DNA of 64,000 bases from Sulfurovum sp. Its GTDB lineage: Bacteria; Campylobacterota; Campylobacteria; Campylobacterales; Sulfurovaceae. Made by a program: the position numbers and the translations under genes. Positions 21,271 through 29,030 of the stretch are shown one piece after another (the stretch's first letter is position 1; every line of letters begins with the position of its first letter). The stretch spans positions 62,001-126,000 of the forward strand of contig JAUZSE010000011.1 of assembly GCA_030949725.1 (NCBI GenBank). Direction: 5' to 3'. The notes beneath the pieces are model-generated. The model did no database searches, had not been told where the DNA came from, and saw only the letters and a list, made by a program, of their open reading frames with translations.

Positions 21271-22338
21271 TTAATATTTTCCACCTCTAAGTATATCAAG
21301 TACATTGGTTGCATAACAACCTTTAGGTAAGACAAATGAAAGCTCATAATGGGCTTTTTCTTCTACATAATTTTTGGTAATTTCTGTCACTTGTATCCAC
21401 GCATAACGTCTTGCACCATTTAGATTGATTTCTTCTACATAAGATGCTTCAATGAGTCCTGCTGTACTTTCAGACAGTTTTGTTTTTTTGCCAGGAAGCA
21501 ATCCTGCCGGTGCGATGTCTTTACTTTCAAAACGTTTGGCTTCTTCTTCCAAGTTTTCAACATTAAACAGTCGTCCATAAGGATAATGCATCATCACATC
21601 ACCCTCTACGAGTTTAAAAAATTTGGTTGGGACTTTAGTACCTTTAAGTGAACCCTCGGGTAACTTCATCACCTGCTCTGTTTCTCTTTCTGAAAATTTT
21701 TCGAGTAATAAGTTTAACTCCATACGTTTTGAGAGCCAATTGTTAAAAAGGTAAGATTGGTAAGACCCCATCAAAAATTCTTTGGTTTTACGGTCACGCA
21801 TTTTGAGTGTACCTTCAAGGAGTTTCTTGCCATCTACCCAGTTGTTTCCATCTGTTCCAAAACGTTGATTTCCAAAGTAGTTTGGTATACCATTGTTTTT
21901 TATCCACTTGAGTACTGAGTCCAGTTTGTCTTTTTGCACACCAAGCACTTTTTTAAGGCGAATATTAAAACGGTTACCTTTTAGGTGTCCTACGCGTATC
22001 TTATTGTTATGACGTATGGTCGAAAGTATCTTTATCTTGTCATGTGTGAAGGCTTTGATCTTTTCTTCATGTATCGCCATCACCGAGATGTACTGCAAAG
22101 TCATGGCATGCTTGTCTTTGAGTCCTGCATACCCCATGTCACGACGACGAATACCCACATGGTTAGAAATGGCATCTAACATTTCCCATGTAGTCATATC
22201 TTTTTTACGGACATGTAATACTAGATGTTCACCCTCTCCTGTAAATTCATAGAGAGGTATCTCTTCCACAGTAAAATCTCTAGCAGAGGAATTAAAATGA
22301 AAATCATTTTTGACGTTTAAAGGGTAAATTGGGTTCAT
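21271..22338 (-). CDS. truD: tRNA pseudouridine(13) synthase TruD
   Basis: TruD makes pseudouridine at position 13 of tRNA(Glu). The 355-residue protein has the family motif GYAGLKDKHAMT near residue 75, which contains the catalytic Asp, and the NYFGNQRFG block near residue 155. The insertion domain typical for TruD is present, and the length is normal. It lies between a lipoprotein gene and thiL, all on the minus strand, with gaps of about 60-80 bases. Confidence 0.94.
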   Translation of the reverse strand: MNPIYPLNVKNDFHFNSSARDFTVEEIPLYEFTGEGEHLVLHVRKKDMTTWEMLDAISNHVGIRRRDMGYAGLKDKHAMTLQYISVMAIHEEKIKAFTHDKIKILSTIRHNNKIRVGHLKGNRFNIRLKKVLGVQKDKLDSVLKWIKNNGIPNYFGNQRFGTDGNNWVDGKKLLEGTLKMRDRKTKEFLMGSYQSYLFNNWLSKRMELNLLLEKFSERETEQVMKLPEGSLKGTKVPTKFFKLVEGDVMMHYPYGRLFNVENLEEEAKRFESKDIAPAGLLPGKKTKLSESTAGLIEASYVEEINLNGARRYAWIQVTEITKNYVEEKAHYELSFVLPKGCYATNVLDILRGGKY

Positions 22339-22419: not shown

Positions 22420-23253
22420 TCAATTAGAAAAATGATGACTATCACATCTGAATCTCTCATCATTTTTAGCCACTTTTGCAAATACAGTCAACGGTGTATT
22501 TGTCGCTTCTGCAACTTCCATTACCTCGCTGTAATTTTCAGGGGCAAAAGAAACAAGCATTTCATACTCTTCACCGCTAAGCCCTACGCCATCAGTTATA
22601 ATTTCAAGAATATCAAATCCATATTTATTAATATCTAACATTTTGTTTGTATCACAGTAGAGTCCGTCAGAGATGTCCATGCCTGTACGTAAATAACTTC
22701 TTGCTTTGGCTATGAACTCTACGCGTAAAGTGGGATTGTAAAAGCGTGAATTATCGGCTATTTTCTCACCTCTAAACAGTGCATCTAGGTCTTGTTTGCT
22801 CTCACCTAATTTTCCAGTGTATGCCAAGAAATCACCCTCTTTTAGACCAGTGCGTAAAAGTGGATTTTTACTTTTAGAAATGATGGTAATACTAAGATGT
22901 AATTTATCGCCACCTATGGTATCGCCACCTATGATCTCACAACCGTACTCATTGGCAGTTGCTTCAAGACTGAGTGTCAGTTCGTCTATGTCTGCTTCTG
23001 TAAGATCTTTGGGTAAAGAGACCGTAACGAGTGCATATTTAGGTTGGGCATTCATCGCTATAGCATCTGAAAGGTTTATAAGCATAGCTTTTCGCCCTAT
23101 TTGGGCTATGCTCATCCAATCACGTTTAAAATGCACATCTTCAAAGAATGCATCCATACTGTAAAGTGTATCTCCGATGACAGCTGCATCATCACCTATG
23201 TGTTTTGAGGTTAGTTTGTTGATCAAGTAGTGTTCTTTATCTTGAATGGGCAT
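22420..23253 (-). CDS. thiL: Thiamine-monophosphate kinase ThiL
   Basis: ThiL phosphorylates thiamine monophosphate to thiamine diphosphate. Visible features are HIGDDAAVIG near residue 20 (Mg/ATP-binding), the Asp-rich SMDAFFEDVHF, NLSDAIAMNAQPKYALVTVS, GGDTIGGD, and MDISDGLYCD near residue 195. The length of 277 is at the short end of the family but is usual for Campylobacterota. The ATG follows AGGAG by a good spacing. Confidence 0.93.
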   Translation of the reverse strand: MPIQDKEHYLINKLTSKHIGDDAAVIGDTLYSMDAFFEDVHFKRDWMSIAQIGRKAMLINLSDAIAMNAQPKYALVTVSLPKDLTEADIDELTLSLEATANEYGCEIIGGDTIGGDKLHLSITIISKSKNPLLRTGLKEGDFLAYTGKLGESKQDLDALFRGEKIADNSRFYNPTLRVEFIAKARSYLRTGMDISDGLYCDTNKMLDINKYGFDILEIITDGVGLSGEEYEMLVSFAPENYSEVMEVAEATNTPLTVFAKVAKNDERFRCDSHHFSN

Positions 23254-23389: not shown

Positions 23390-24460
23390 ATGCCAAACAA
23401 ACTTGAGATAAAAGCATTCTTTTTTAATGCAAAAACAGATTACCTACCTTATTATAAAAACTTCAATATCACGATGGAAGATAAAGCCACAGTTAAAGAT
23501 TTGCTTATGGAAATACAAGCGGCAAATGAAAATTTCTCTTTCCCTAGGCAAAAGCTTATTATGAAGATTAATGGACTGGTTGTAGAAGCCAAACAATCCA
23601 TAGCTTCACTTGTCAAAAAATTTGGGACAACCCTACAGATAGACCCCGTAAAGGCTTACCGTTCAAATGATGGGCTAAGAATGAACGATAAAGACTTTAT
23701 GGTATCGTATGCTCTTTTAGCACCGTATGCAAGTGATGCTGATTTAAAATACTATAAAACACTTTATGCTTTACATTATGCATCTGAAACAGAAAACTTT
23801 GACCATGCCTACATTGGTGATGCCATACTGATTCTTGCACATAAGATGATAGAAGAAGGTTCGGAGCATACAGAAGAAATCTTGGAAGCAATCACTTCTA
23901 CACACTCAAGTTTGATGGATTGTGAATATGAAAACAATCTTTTTAATGCCCAAGACCATACAGAGACGATCAATGCACTCAAAGCCATGGCAAATCCAGA
24001 GCCTGAACCATCGCTCTGTTCTCAGCTTATAGCTAAATTTTTCAAAAAAGAGCAAGAAGAAACAGAAGCCCCTACTCCTATAGTAAGAAAGCGTATTATT
24101 ATAGAAAACCTTAGAGAGAAACAAGTGGCACACTATGCAGGTTTGGCTTCACATGATGAAATGCATGCATTAATCGCTAAAATGGGCATGAAAGAAATTC
24201 ATTTCTCAAGAGCACATAAACTTTCAGGTCTTGCAATACTTGATGATAACAAAGATCTTGCACTTAAAAAAGCAGGTGCAACGCTTTTAGATGCTTATGA
24301 TTCAGGTGCAGAAGTACTTGTGGTTGAAGATGTGGATGTCCTTGATATGTTTATAGAAAACTTTTCTTCTATAGAAAAAATTATAGGTAGAAAGATAATA
24401 GGCTTAGAGCTTATGCCAACTGAAGATTTTATGGCTCAGGTTTCTACTGTAGCAGGCTAG
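23390..24460 (+). CDS. Cysteine-less SdhB/SdhE mimic upstream of sdhABE
   Basis: Residues 1-170 align along their length with the SdhB encoded 2 kb downstream: IKAFFFNAKTDYLPYYK against IKAWRFNAETDYLPYTK, then KINGLVVEAKQ against KVNGKAVLACK, and a later AYIGDAILILAH against AFLGPAALNAAY. All cysteines that bind the 2Fe-2S and 4Fe-4S clusters are gone. Residues about 245-356 resemble the second half of SdhE (LLDAYDSGAEVLVVED against LLDAIDNNADLMVTPC), again without the CCG cysteines. The whole protein has just two Cys. It may correspond to what databases call a DUF5644 protein, which I cannot check. A role in assembling or regulating the SdhABE complex is inferred. AGGAAA precedes the ATG. 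Confidence 0.75.
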   Translation: MPNKLEIKAFFFNAKTDYLPYYKNFNITMEDKATVKDLLMEIQAANENFSFPRQKLIMKINGLVVEAKQSIASLVKKFGTTLQIDPVKAYRSNDGLRMNDKDFMVSYALLAPYASDADLKYYKTLYALHYASETENFDHAYIGDAILILAHKMIEEGSEHTEEILEAITSTHSSLMDCEYENNLFNAQDHTETINALKAMANPEPEPSLCSQLIAKFFKKEQEETEAPTPIVRKRIIIENLREKQVAHYAGLASHDEMHALIAKMGMKEIHFSRAHKLSGLAILDDNKDLALKKAGATLLDAYDSGAEVLVVEDVDVLDMFIENFSSIEKIIGRKIIGLELMPTEDFMAQVSTVAG

Positions 24461-24627: not shown

Positions 24628-26358
24628 ATGAGCAAAAACTCAGATATTAAAATCTACGAATACGATGCTGTTATCGTTGGTTCTGGACTAGCAGGTTTGG
24701 CAGCTGCCAAAGAACTAACTGAAGCTGGTAAACGAACAGCCGTTATAACCAAACTACACCCACTCCGTTCACATTCAGGTGCCGCACAAGGGGGGATTAA
24801 TGCTGCTCTTGGCAAAGAAGACTCTACGGAACTTCACGAGTTTGACACAGTCAAAGGTTCAGACTACCTTGCAGATCAAGACTGTGTAGAGCTTATGTGT
24901 ACCAAAGCACCTGAGACTATCAGATGGGCTGAACGTATGGGTGCTGTATTTTCACGTGATGATAAAGGTGATATTGCTATACGTCCTTTTGGTGGACAGT
25001 CACAACCTCGTGCCTGTTATGCAAAAGACAGAACAGGCTTAACATTACTTCAAACTATCTATGAACAAGCAGACCGTGCAGGTATAGAAGTGTATGATGA
25101 ATGGTATGCGAGTGATATCATCTATGACGATGGAAAAGTATCTGGTGTGGTTGCTTATAACATTAGAGATTCTGAAGTGGCTATCTTTAATGCAAAAGCA
25201 ACGATGTTTGCAACAGGTGGAAACGGTAGACTCTTTAGATTTAACTCAAATGCCCATGCAAATACAGGCGATGCTCTTTCTATCGTCGCACGTAAAGGTC
25301 TTCCTCTTGAAGATATGGAGTTTGTACAATTTCATCCATCTGGTTTGGGTGGTTCTGGTGTACTTATCTCTGAAGCTGCACGTGGTGAGGGAGGTAGACT
25401 CTTTAACTCTATCGGTGAAAGATTTATGACTAAGTATGCACCCAATGCCATGGAGCTTGCATCACGTGATGTTGTGAGCCGTGCCATTATGGAAGAAGTA
25501 CGTCAAGGACGTGGTGTGGGTAAAGATGGTCAGTCAGTACTGCTTGACCTCACACACCTAGACCCTCAAATCATCCTTACTCGGCTTCCTGAACTTCGCG
25601 AACTAGCCATTGCTTTCCAAGGGCAAGATATGCTGAAAGTTGCCATACACATATCTGCTACAGCACACTACTCTATGGGTGGTATACCTACCAACATTAA
25701 CTGTCAAGTACAAAAAAATGCTGAGGGTGATACCGTAGAAGGTTTTTATGCTGCGGGTGAATGTGCCTGTGTTTCTGTGCATGGTGCCAACCGTCTAGGA
25801 GCAAACTCAGTACTTGAAGCGATGTTATTTGGTAGACATGCAGGTGAAAATATGATAAAAGCACTTGACGATGGTCTTAGCTTACGTAAAGCAACACTCG
25901 CGGATGCAGACCAATGTATAGATGAAATGACTAGCATTAAAACATCTAATGGGAATGAAACCGTTCCTAAACTTAGAGATGAACTACAGATTGGTATGAC
26001 TGCCAATGCTGGTGTCTTTAGAACCAAAGAATCTTTAGACATACAGTTAGCACTTGTTGATGATGTATTGGCACGATTTAAACATATCCGTATCGATGAC
26101 AAATCCAAAACATTTAATACAGACTTACAAGAAGCCATAGAACTTGGGCATATGATAGAATCCGCCAAAGTTGTGGTTGTGGGTGCACTTACACGTGAAG
26201 AAAGCCGAGGTGGTCATTTCCGTGAAGATTTCCCGACTAGAGATGATGAAAAGTTTATGAAGCATACTTATGCAACGATGGATAAAGACTACAATGTAGA
26301 TATATCGTGGGGTAAAGTAACACCTGGTAAATTTGAGCCGATGGAAAGAAAATATTAA
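24628..26358 (+). CDS. sdhA: Succinate dehydrogenase/fumarate reductase flavoprotein subunit
   Basis: The subunit interconverts succinate and fumarate on a covalent FAD. The Rossmann motif [16 protein letters not shown] is at residues 15-30, [14 protein letters not shown] holds the His that binds FAD, and [17 protein letters not shown] and [10 protein letters not shown] form the dicarboxylate site. At 576 residues the length is normal. There is no twin-arginine signal, so this complex should face the cytoplasm, unlike the exported methylmenaquinol:fumarate reductase of some relatives. AAGGAT lies before the ATG. It leads the sdhA-sdhB-sdhE operon. Confidence 0.94.
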
Positions 26359-26378: not shown

Positions 26379-27407
26379 ATGAGTGAAGTAGAAACCGTAG
26401 AACAGAGTACAACACAAGAAAGTCGTACTAGAACAGTCACCATAAAAGCATGGAGATTTAACGCAGAGACAGACTACCTCCCTTACACCAAAGGGTATAC
26501 GATGGAAGTAAGTAAAGATGAGCTAATCCTTGATCTTATGAACCGTATCAAATGGGAACATGATGGAAGTTTTTCTTATAGACGTTCATGTAGACATGGT
26601 ATCTGTGGTGCCTGTGCCATTAAGGTAAATGGAAAAGCTGTATTAGCCTGTAAACAAAACGCTATTGAATTACTAGATATGTTTGACAATGACATTACTT
26701 TAGAGCCAAGTAGCAAAAAACGTGCGGTTAAAGATATGATCATTGATAAGTCAGACTTTTGGGAAAAACATGCAGCAGTCAAGCCTTATGTCGTTACTGA
26801 CGTAGAAGCACGTCCAGAGCATGAGAGTAAACAAAGCATAGCAGAGTTTAACAACTTCCTAGACTCTGACCTTTGTATACAGTGTGGTGCTTGTCACTAC
26901 TCCTGTCCTGCACTTGAAGTCAACGATGCATTTCTTGGACCAGCAGCACTCAATGCTGCTTATAGATTTACCGTAGACACTAGAGATGAAGTTGGAGATG
27001 AAAGACTTGAAATCACAGCCAAAATGGGCTCGGGTGTTTGGGACTGTGTAAAATGTTTTGAATGTGCTGAAGCATGTCCAAAAGAGATAGACCCTATCGG
27101 AAAAATTGGTAAACTTCATAACCTACAATTTGTTCGTGGCATAGCAGAAAGTAATGTAGCCACACGTCACGCAGAAGGTTTTTTACGTGGTATGAAGAAA
27201 ACAGGCTACTTAGATGAAGCCGATATCGTAACATACTCTGAAGGATATTTAGGCGTATACAAACACTTAGGCACAGCACTAAAAATGATGAAGACTGGTA
27301 AAATTCACTGGCATTCAGGTATTCCATTTATAGACTCTATCCCTAAGATAAAAAATCTTGATGAAGTGCAAAAACTCATCGAAATTTCACAAACAAATAA
27401 ACTGTAA
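26379..27407 (+). CDS. sdhB: Succinate dehydrogenase/fumarate reductase iron-sulfur subunit
   Basis: The 342-residue subunit passes electrons between SdhA and the membrane-side subunit. The 2Fe-2S motif is RRSCRHGICGACAIKVNGKA plus a later Cys; two further groups are CIQCGACHYSCP and CVKCFECAEACP. The third group has the C-x2-C-x2-C-x3-C spacing of a 4Fe-4S cluster, as in SdhABE-type enzymes, not the usual 3Fe-4S spacing. AGGAGG precedes the ATG, and sdhE begins ten bases after the stop. Confidence 0.94.
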   Translation: MSEVETVEQSTTQESRTRTVTIKAWRFNAETDYLPYTKGYTMEVSKDELILDLMNRIKWEHDGSFSYRRSCRHGICGACAIKVNGKAVLACKQNAIELLDMFDNDITLEPSSKKRAVKDMIIDKSDFWEKHAAVKPYVVTDVEARPEHESKQSIAEFNNFLDSDLCIQCGACHYSCPALEVNDAFLGPAALNAAYRFTVDTRDEVGDERLEITAKMGSGVWDCVKCFECAEACPKEIDPIGKIGKLHNLQFVRGIAESNVATRHAEGFLRGMKKTGYLDEADIVTYSEGYLGVYKHLGTALKMMKTGKIHWHSGIPFIDSIPKIKNLDEVQKLIEISQTNKL

Positions 27408-27417
27408 GGAGAAAAAG

Positions 27418-28308
27418 ATGAGCGAACAACTACATTATGCATTATTTACAGGGTGTACTGCAAAGCAGTCTACACCTGAACTTTTATCATCTACACTTGC
27501 AGTAGCTGATAAATTAGGTATCAAAATCACTATACTTGAAGAGGCTTCATGTTGTGGAGCATCTCACTTACAAGATTTTGATGAATTTCTAGCACACGTA
27601 CTCAACGCACGCAATATCTGTTATGCAGAAAAGTTAGGACTTACGATGATTACCATCTGTAATACCTGTCAACTCAACTCTGCTATGACAAAACATGCCC
27701 TAGACAAAGACCCAGAACTTAAAGCTAGAGTCAATGAAAAGTTAAAAGAAGTTGGACTTGAGTACAAAGGTACTTCTGAGATAAAACATTTCCTTTATAC
27801 ACTTATAGATGAATATGGGCTAGAAAATGTGAAAGAAAAAGTAACAGTACCTCTTTCTCACCTAAACATAGCACCATTTTATGGATGTCACAACATCAGA
27901 CCTTCTGAGTTACATCAAGATGCCAATGGACGTGAAAATTCATACAATCCAAACTCACTAGACCGTCTTATAACGGCACTTGAAGGTAATCCAGTAGACT
28001 ATGAGAGTAAAAACAAATGTTGTGGTTTTCACGTGGAACTACAAGCAAACCATACTTCTGAAGTACTTTCAGGAAATGCCCTGCTTGACGCTATAGACAA
28101 CAACGCAGACCTTATGGTCACACCATGCCCACTTTGTCACCTCAAAATGGACACGTATCAAGATAGCATCGGTAAAGTCATGGGACGTGATGTAGAACTA
28201 CCTGTTTTACACATGCCACAAATGGTTGCACTTGCATTAGGATGTACAGAAAAAGAGATAGGACTGAACTTCCACGTTCAAAAAGCCAAACATCTTTATA
28301 CTGCATAA
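27418..28308 (+). CDS. sdhE: SdhE-type CCG-domain subunit of succinate/fumarate oxidoreductase
   Basis: This subunit replaces the classical membrane anchors SdhC/D in non-classical (type E) complexes. It has two CCG domains of the HdrB type: SCCGASH near residue 46 with CNTCQLN near 81, and GCHNIRP...KCCGFHVEL with PCPLCHLKMD near residue 240. In known members these bind an unusual iron-sulfur cluster and contact quinone. ATG 27418 is chosen because AAGGAG lies just before it; the frame is open further upstream inside sdhB. Confidence 0.92.
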   Translation: MSEQLHYALFTGCTAKQSTPELLSSTLAVADKLGIKITILEEASCCGASHLQDFDEFLAHVLNARNICYAEKLGLTMITICNTCQLNSAMTKHALDKDPELKARVNEKLKEVGLEYKGTSEIKHFLYTLIDEYGLENVKEKVTVPLSHLNIAPFYGCHNIRPSELHQDANGRENSYNPNSLDRLITALEGNPVDYESKNKCCGFHVELQANHTSEVLSGNALLDAIDNNADLMVTPCPLCHLKMDTYQDSIGKVMGRDVELPVLHMPQMVALALGCTEKEIGLNFHVQKAKHLYTA

Positions 28309-28345: not shown

Positions 28346-29030
28346 ATGAAAAAAATAATCTTTCTCATTGTAGCATCGCTAATGATAAGTTCAAATGCTT
28401 TTGCCCAAGAGACACCTACACCTTTTCAAGCTGTTCATCCAGATAAAGCAATCATCCTTCAAGAAGGTGAAGCTAAAATGTTTTGTCCAAAATGCACAAA
28501 AGAACTTGCCATGTCATATAAAACAAACCATGCTTCCAATTTAAATGGAAAGGTTAAGCAATATTGTTCTATCCATTGTTTAGCTAAAACTATGGTAGAT
28601 GGCAAAAAAGTTACAGGAATTAAAGTTGTAGATAATATAAATTTAAAATTCATAAGTGTCATCAACTCATGGTATGTGATGGGGAGTGATAAAGCAGCTA
28701 CTAAAGGGTGCCATTAGTAAATATGCATTTGGTCATAAAAATGCCGCTGAAAAATTCGCAAAAGAATTTGGTGGAAAAGTGATGACCTATTATGCTGTGA
28801 TGGATGTAGTCAAAAAATCTTTGGCTAAAGAAACAGAAATGATACATAAGAAACAGGCAATGATGGCTCAAAAAGGTGAAATGATGTATATAAACATGTG
28901 TACCCCGTTTGATGATACATTCAGTAGTATTGCTGAAGCTAAAACATATTTGCTAACGCAAAAACCTTGTGGTGCACTCAAAGGCAAACAACTTCAAGCC
29001 ATTGGTATTTACTTAAACTTACGTAAGTAA
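28346..29030 (+). pseudogene. NosL-like periplasmic protein, single-base frameshift
   Basis: A signal peptide (MKKIIFLIVASLMISSNAFA) is followed by FCPKCTKELAMSYKTNH with a CxxC metal-binding pair, then CSIHCLAK, and a domain with KYAFGHKNAAEKFAKEFGGKVM that matches NosL-like copper-binding proteins. The frame breaks at about 28709; removing one T (GGG-T-GCC) joins KAATKG to AISKYAFGH and gives 227 residues. NosL delivers copper to nitrous oxide reductase, but no nos genes are in the window. Its function here, perhaps another copper protein, is unclear. It follows sdhE by 37 bases. Confidence 0.72.

Follow-up and report, generated by a model that had tools for sequence, protein, structure and literature searches.

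A cluster-free SdhB/SdhE-like protein family of Campylobacterota with a probable origin at the sdhABE locus

Introduction

The closest described relative of the protein considered here is an uncharacterized Helicobacter pylori protein of known crystal structure (PDB entry 3KWL), which comprises a DUF5644 domain (PF18712) and an HdrB-like_C domain (PF22196). We infer that 3KWL is HP0468, because HP0468 is annotated as DUF5644 and has the right length in a gastric cancer genome-wide association study that noted it (PMC6090961). HP0468 was also noted in a comparison of flagellar sheaths (PMC9570263). Despite a shared name, the family SdhE/YgfY/SdhAF2 (PF03937) is unrelated to the SdhE subunit of SdhABE; the analogy that it may offer is that of a non-redox protein binding FrdA at the FrdB site (PMC5773532).

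We analyzed a 64-kb stretch of DNA from a Sulfurovum genome (the window; completeness of the source genome, 70%). An open reading frame on its forward strand (23390 to 24460), open from ATG to stop, encodes a 356-amino-acid protein that homology searches and profiles identify as a cluster-free SdhB/SdhE-like fusion of the DUF5644 plus HdrB-like_C family. On the same strand, 167 bp downstream, begins sdhA (24628 to 26358), the flavoprotein gene of SdhABE (TIGR01812, 719 bits), followed by sdhB (26379 to 27407, forward) and sdhE (27418 to 28308, forward), which encode the iron-sulfur subunit and the HdrB-like subunit and which profile comparison identifies as the paralogues of the N and C halves, respectively. 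The upstream neighbor is the divergent gene thiL (22420 to 23253, reverse strand), which together with truD (21271 to 22338, reverse strand) forms the family's most conserved neighborhood. The sdhE open reading frame as listed (27358 to 28308) has a TTG start inside sdhB, and the ATG at 27418 is its likely start. Farther downstream, two overlapping open reading frames (28346 to 28717 and 28686 to 29030) look by eye like one NosL-like protein with a frameshift near 28700, possibly an assembly error.

Results

Profile data support the initial annotation's claim that the protein begins as SdhB and ends as the second half of SdhE. Residues ~3 to 205 are SdhB-like, and residues ~230 to 356 match the second half of SdhE. 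An N-half profile built from 61 family members aligned with SdhB 18 to 254 in hhalign at 99.87% (E = 7e-32), and the C-half profile aligned with SdhE at 99.8% (E = 6e-29). All cross controls (N half versus SdhE, C half versus SdhB, and both halves versus SdhA, TruD, and ThiL) stayed below 1%, and the maximum among 50 unrelated profile pairs was 0.9%. The annotation was to be abandoned if profile searches placed neither half in the SdhB or CCG families or if a predicted fold proved unrelated to both; the searches found both the SdhB and the SdhE/HdrB families. Within the protein's own genome, SdhB was the next best tblastn match (31% identity, E = 4e-9), and NCBIfam gave a weak FrdB match over residues 4 to 117 (E = 0.002).

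Taken alone, the window protein falls below the cut-off in all of its Pfam scores: 14.1 bits for DUF5644 (gathering cut-off, 25 bits) and 16.3 to 18.2 bits for HdrB-like_C (gathering cut-off, 33.4 bits). At the level of the family, 42 of 52 N halves match DUF5644 at an E value of ≤0.01 (best, 5e-48), and 50 of 51 C halves match HdrB-like_C at the same threshold. Searched against PDB sequences, the N-half profile ranked 3KWL first (8e-47), with SdhB/FrdB chains following from 2.7e-7 onward (E. coli FrdB, 3.5e-7), and the C-half profile retrieved 3KWL (1e-45) and HdrB (7e-18). Given these family-level matches, including that of the family profile to 3KWL, the window protein is, as judged from sequence, a divergent relative of DUF5644. 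Both of its halves match 3KWL and neither has conserved cysteine ligands, as befits a member of that family. Homology to SdhB/FrdB is present, but the cysteine ligands for the [2Fe-2S], [4Fe-4S], and [3Fe-4S] clusters are not, and an SdhE/HdrB (CCG) protein proper would have two CCG motifs with cysteine ligands, of which the first domain is absent here and the cysteines of the second are not conserved. We place very high confidence in the identity and family membership of the window protein. It differs from 3KWL in that the latter has a full-length SdhE-like half and is not encoded next to sdhABE, whereas the window protein lacks the first CCG domain; the copy in an H. pylori-type genome matches 3KWL over residues 1 to 495 (E = 1e-246).

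An AlphaFold2 model from an alignment of the window protein with two relatives reached a pLDDT of 37. When SdhB from the window was added to the alignment, the pLDDT was 46.5, usable only over residues ~1 to 90; over that stretch the best structural match was 3KWL (85 residues; Z = 11.2; rmsd, 2.2), and SdhB/FrdB chains ranked below it. The SdhB row biases the model, and the match is therefore a consistency check only.

The protein was also described at the outset as stripped of every cluster cysteine, and the ligand table bears this out. Relative to SdhB, its N half (23390 to 24031) has a beta-grasp ferredoxin-like domain that lacks the [2Fe-2S] loop, followed by a helical domain that lacks the 4Fe-4S/3Fe-4S ligands, an assignment drawn from hhalign, the PDB profile search, and the ligand table; all 12 cysteine columns are changed or deleted, and the C-terminal part of SdhB is missing. 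A linker and the C half (24032 to 24457) align, by hhalign, the 3KWL and HdrB profile matches, and the ligand table, with the second CCG/HdrB-like domain of SdhE without its cysteine ligands. Only two cysteines occur in the window protein, at positions 178 and 210, and none of the 12 cysteines of SdhB or the 10 of SdhE is kept as a conserved cysteine in the family. The [2Fe-2S] loop is deleted family-wide, and the remaining SdhB cysteine columns are occupied by other residues; C178 falls in one former ligand column, in which cysteine is not conserved and histidine is commonest. No cysteine ligand is conserved in the SdhE half, where one column has cysteine in 14 of 62 members. No cluster could form in the usual way, so electron transfer by these proteins is, judging from their sequences, very unlikely.

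What the family has conserved is largely inherited. Eighteen positions of the N half are conserved at ≥75%, 14 of them with the same residue as SdhB, and the C half retains D304, D/E308, and R334 of SdhE. Since most of the conserved positions are shared with SdhB and SdhE, the scaffold (fold and contacts) appears to have been kept; a new catalytic set is not apparent. Between the window gene and an 86% identical relative, dN/dS is 0.11, and other family pairs range from 0.09 to 0.26, values that indicate a working protein under purifying selection. Terminal branches are several-fold longer than those of SdhB, and by these measures the family protein is less constrained than its parents SdhB and SdhE.

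The window gene is not the isolated local case that it was first taken to be, even though its place beside sdhABE here is as described: its family is phylum-wide, named in Pfam, and represented by the solved structure 3KWL. Members occur in about 190 of 298 surveyed Campylobacterota genomes, which carry the family codes f1 to f13 (the window belongs to f1) and were sorted by hand on E value and family. With the N-half profile, members reach E values down to 1e-78 and true SdhB proteins lie at about 1e-20 to 1e-37; the ranges touch at a few rows (e.g., G244 and G236), which were assigned by family code and, for G236, also by a further search. A scan of genome contigs recovered one close relative only. 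The Campylobacter jejuni members we take to be Cj1459 and Cj1460; literature searches for these two names found nothing. We set aside a link to the flagellar sheath on considering which Campylobacterota families are unsheathed: the protein family is common outside Helicobacter, and the sheath pattern therefore looks like lineage-specific loss within that genus.

Several architectures span the family. The two-gene form consists of an SdhB-like protein of ~212 to 255 amino acids and an adjacent SdhE-like protein of ~267 to 281 (f10, f13, and part of f2 and f3). The full-length fusion of ~500 amino acids is the H. pylori type (part of f2), and a shortened fusion of ~340 to 410 amino acids without the first CCG domain is found in f1 (including the window), f3, f5, f6, f7, and f8. 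A split form with a short C part occurs as one type in two f3 genomes (G162 and G011) and again in G222. Where the genes are split, the gap between them is −4 to +17 bp. Fusion has apparently occurred at least twice: in one case (the H. pylori type) the C part is full-length, and in another it is shortened. At G087:C1:1318877-1319455 the C half lies in two pieces and is apparently decaying, a loss in progress.

The N-half and C-half trees both recover the family as one group (SH-aLRT, 100) among SdhABE-type SdhB/SdhE and apart from FrdB, with the proteins of the 8-methylmenaquinol type (MFR) in a separate group. Its branch is long, and support for its exact branch point within the SdhB/SdhE radiation is weak; in the C-half tree the rows of shortened members are half-filled. 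Synteny complements the trees. Genomes that lack the gene mostly have sdhABE divergent from thiL(-truD), in f7 with a GGDEF gene interposed. In the window's genus, in G134 (f6), and in f5, the gene stands directly before sdhA and, on contigs that reach far enough, adjoins thiL-truD; f7 and f8 have it as a neighbor of sdhABE in another gene order; and in f3, f10, and some others sdhABE is missing from the thiL locus, where the gene or pair sits beside thiL-truD. Overall, thiL or truD lies within 4.5 kb at 38 of 61 family loci. A desulfoferrodoxin gene comes after sdhABE in some genomes and, in f10, after the pair, an arrangement consistent with sdhABE having been deleted from the interval between pair and desulfoferrodoxin. 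In the f7 genomes concerned (loci L098, L099, L100, L101, and L131), a gene for a protein of ~400 amino acids lies between sdhA and thiL; that of L098, the one tested, encodes a GGDEF (diguanylate cyclase) protein.

This series of loci with and without sdhABE suggests that the copy is ancient and local, and an origin of the family at the sdhABE locus is, from trees and gene order, very probable. A duplication of sdhB-sdhE at the thiL-truD/sdhABE locus would have given rise to a cluster-free pair, and sdhABE would later have been lost there in several lineages that kept the pair. The initial annotation, which had two subunits copied, fused, and kept beside the parent operon, was thus probably right about the place of copying; the adjacent gene pair presumably came first and the fusion later. 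The survey of sdhABE adjacency that it had proposed qualifies the rest, since the gene lies beside sdhABE in five families (f1, f5, f6 [G134], f7, and f8), a minority arrangement, and persists where the sdhABE of this locus is gone.

Discussion

The function that we tentatively favor is that of a non-redox SdhB:SdhE-like scaffold independent of succinate dehydrogenase and fumarate reductase. The N and C parts stay adjacent and have fused apparently at least twice, from which we infer that they may retain the mutual binding of SdhB and SdhE. Together they would form a soluble scaffold that binds another protein, transfers no electrons, and has a function no longer tied to succinate dehydrogenase or fumarate reductase. 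Translationally coupled neighbors differ by lineage, none of the four tested matches Pfam, and no common partner emerged. In several f3 genomes (L062, L056, L057, and L088), the family gene overlaps by 4 bp the next gene, which encodes a conserved ~127-amino-acid protein without a Pfam match; an rsmD-like gene and then flgI-like flagellar genes come after it. In f6 (L040 to L046 and L048), the family gene has a murA-like gene on one side and, at −1 to 14 bp on the other, a gene for a small HNH-like protein whose N terminus carries a membrane segment.

Phyletic data carry this preference. Many genomes with SdhABE or FrdCAB have no family member, and one genome, G174 (L132; an f10 draft of 1.5 Mb in 110 contigs), has an intact pair and, above cut-off, no SdhA/FrdA and no SdhB/FrdB (dhsB); together, these observations favor a scaffold with another partner. 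The only flavoprotein match of G174, at 290 bits, is probably L-aspartate oxidase, and, this being a single draft genome, the absence of SdhA/FrdA could reflect one operon falling into an assembly gap. Because SdhA/FrdA is nearly universal in the survey, its co-occurrence with the family is uninformative. Independence is also favored by the H. pylori-type genomes, in which the member occurs alongside FrdCAB and not beside SdhABE; these are missing from the FrdA listing because an insertion splits the FrdA match. On the other side, the position of the gene beside sdhABE in the five families named above would also follow from a functional link. The SdhA-tied roles first proposed (assembly scaffold, placeholder, or subunit) are possible but weakened.

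Foremost among the alternatives, though unlikely on the sequence record, is a placeholder or assembly factor whose SdhB-like half would dock on the SdhB site of SdhA/FrdA, holding or shielding it until SdhB docks or aiding covalent FAD attachment. The homology of the N half to SdhB and the adjacency to sdhABE in five families speak for it, as does the distribution of the known flavinylation factor Sdh5/YgfY (PF03937), found in none of 29 Campylobacterota genomes tested (E. coli and Caulobacter controls were positive). The E. coli flavinylation factor, which binds FrdA at the FrdB surface, offers a precedent (PMC5773532). Against it, many genomes with SdhABE or FrdCAB, including ones without PF03937, lack the family, G174 has a member without SdhA/FrdA, and the family evolves much faster than SdhB. 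The loop that the family has deleted also speaks against it, for in SdhB this loop carries the [2Fe-2S] cluster next to the flavoprotein. Phyletic evidence against strict dependence on SdhA/FrdA thus appears to weaken the case for a complex II assembly factor.

Two further readings are improbable. A regulatory or structural SdhABE subunit, replacing SdhB/SdhE in some complexes and rendering them inactive, would suit the paralogy with both proteins and the position on the same strand before sdhA, but the family is present where the SdhABE beside thiL was lost, and most lineages have the gene away from sdhABE. An enzyme or small-molecule binder that uses the old quinone or disulfide site of the SdhE half, to which some former ligand columns now occupied by acidic or polar residues might point, is no better placed, for there is no new conserved catalytic set and shortened members have lost the whole first CCG domain. 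A decaying sdhB-sdhE pseudogene, as the loss of all clusters and the degraded copy in G087 might imply, is extremely improbable and is ruled out by the selection estimate for the family as a whole, with open frames in nearly all of the ~190 genomes and near-invariant residues.

Put most broadly, and a shade more tentatively than the SDH-independent non-redox scaffold itself, the family may be a Campylobacterota-specific non-redox mimic of complex II: a cluster-free SdhB:SdhE heterodimer, serving independently as scaffold or placeholder, that in several lineages (Helicobacter among them) would have outlived the enzyme from which it came. Through these data, a Campylobacterota family that is listed as unknown in Pfam, and for which a crystal structure dates from 2010, gains an origin and a first structural rationale. 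The data provide a clear case of redox subunits kept by selection after losing every redox center, and they may matter for H. pylori, whose putative member is HP0468.
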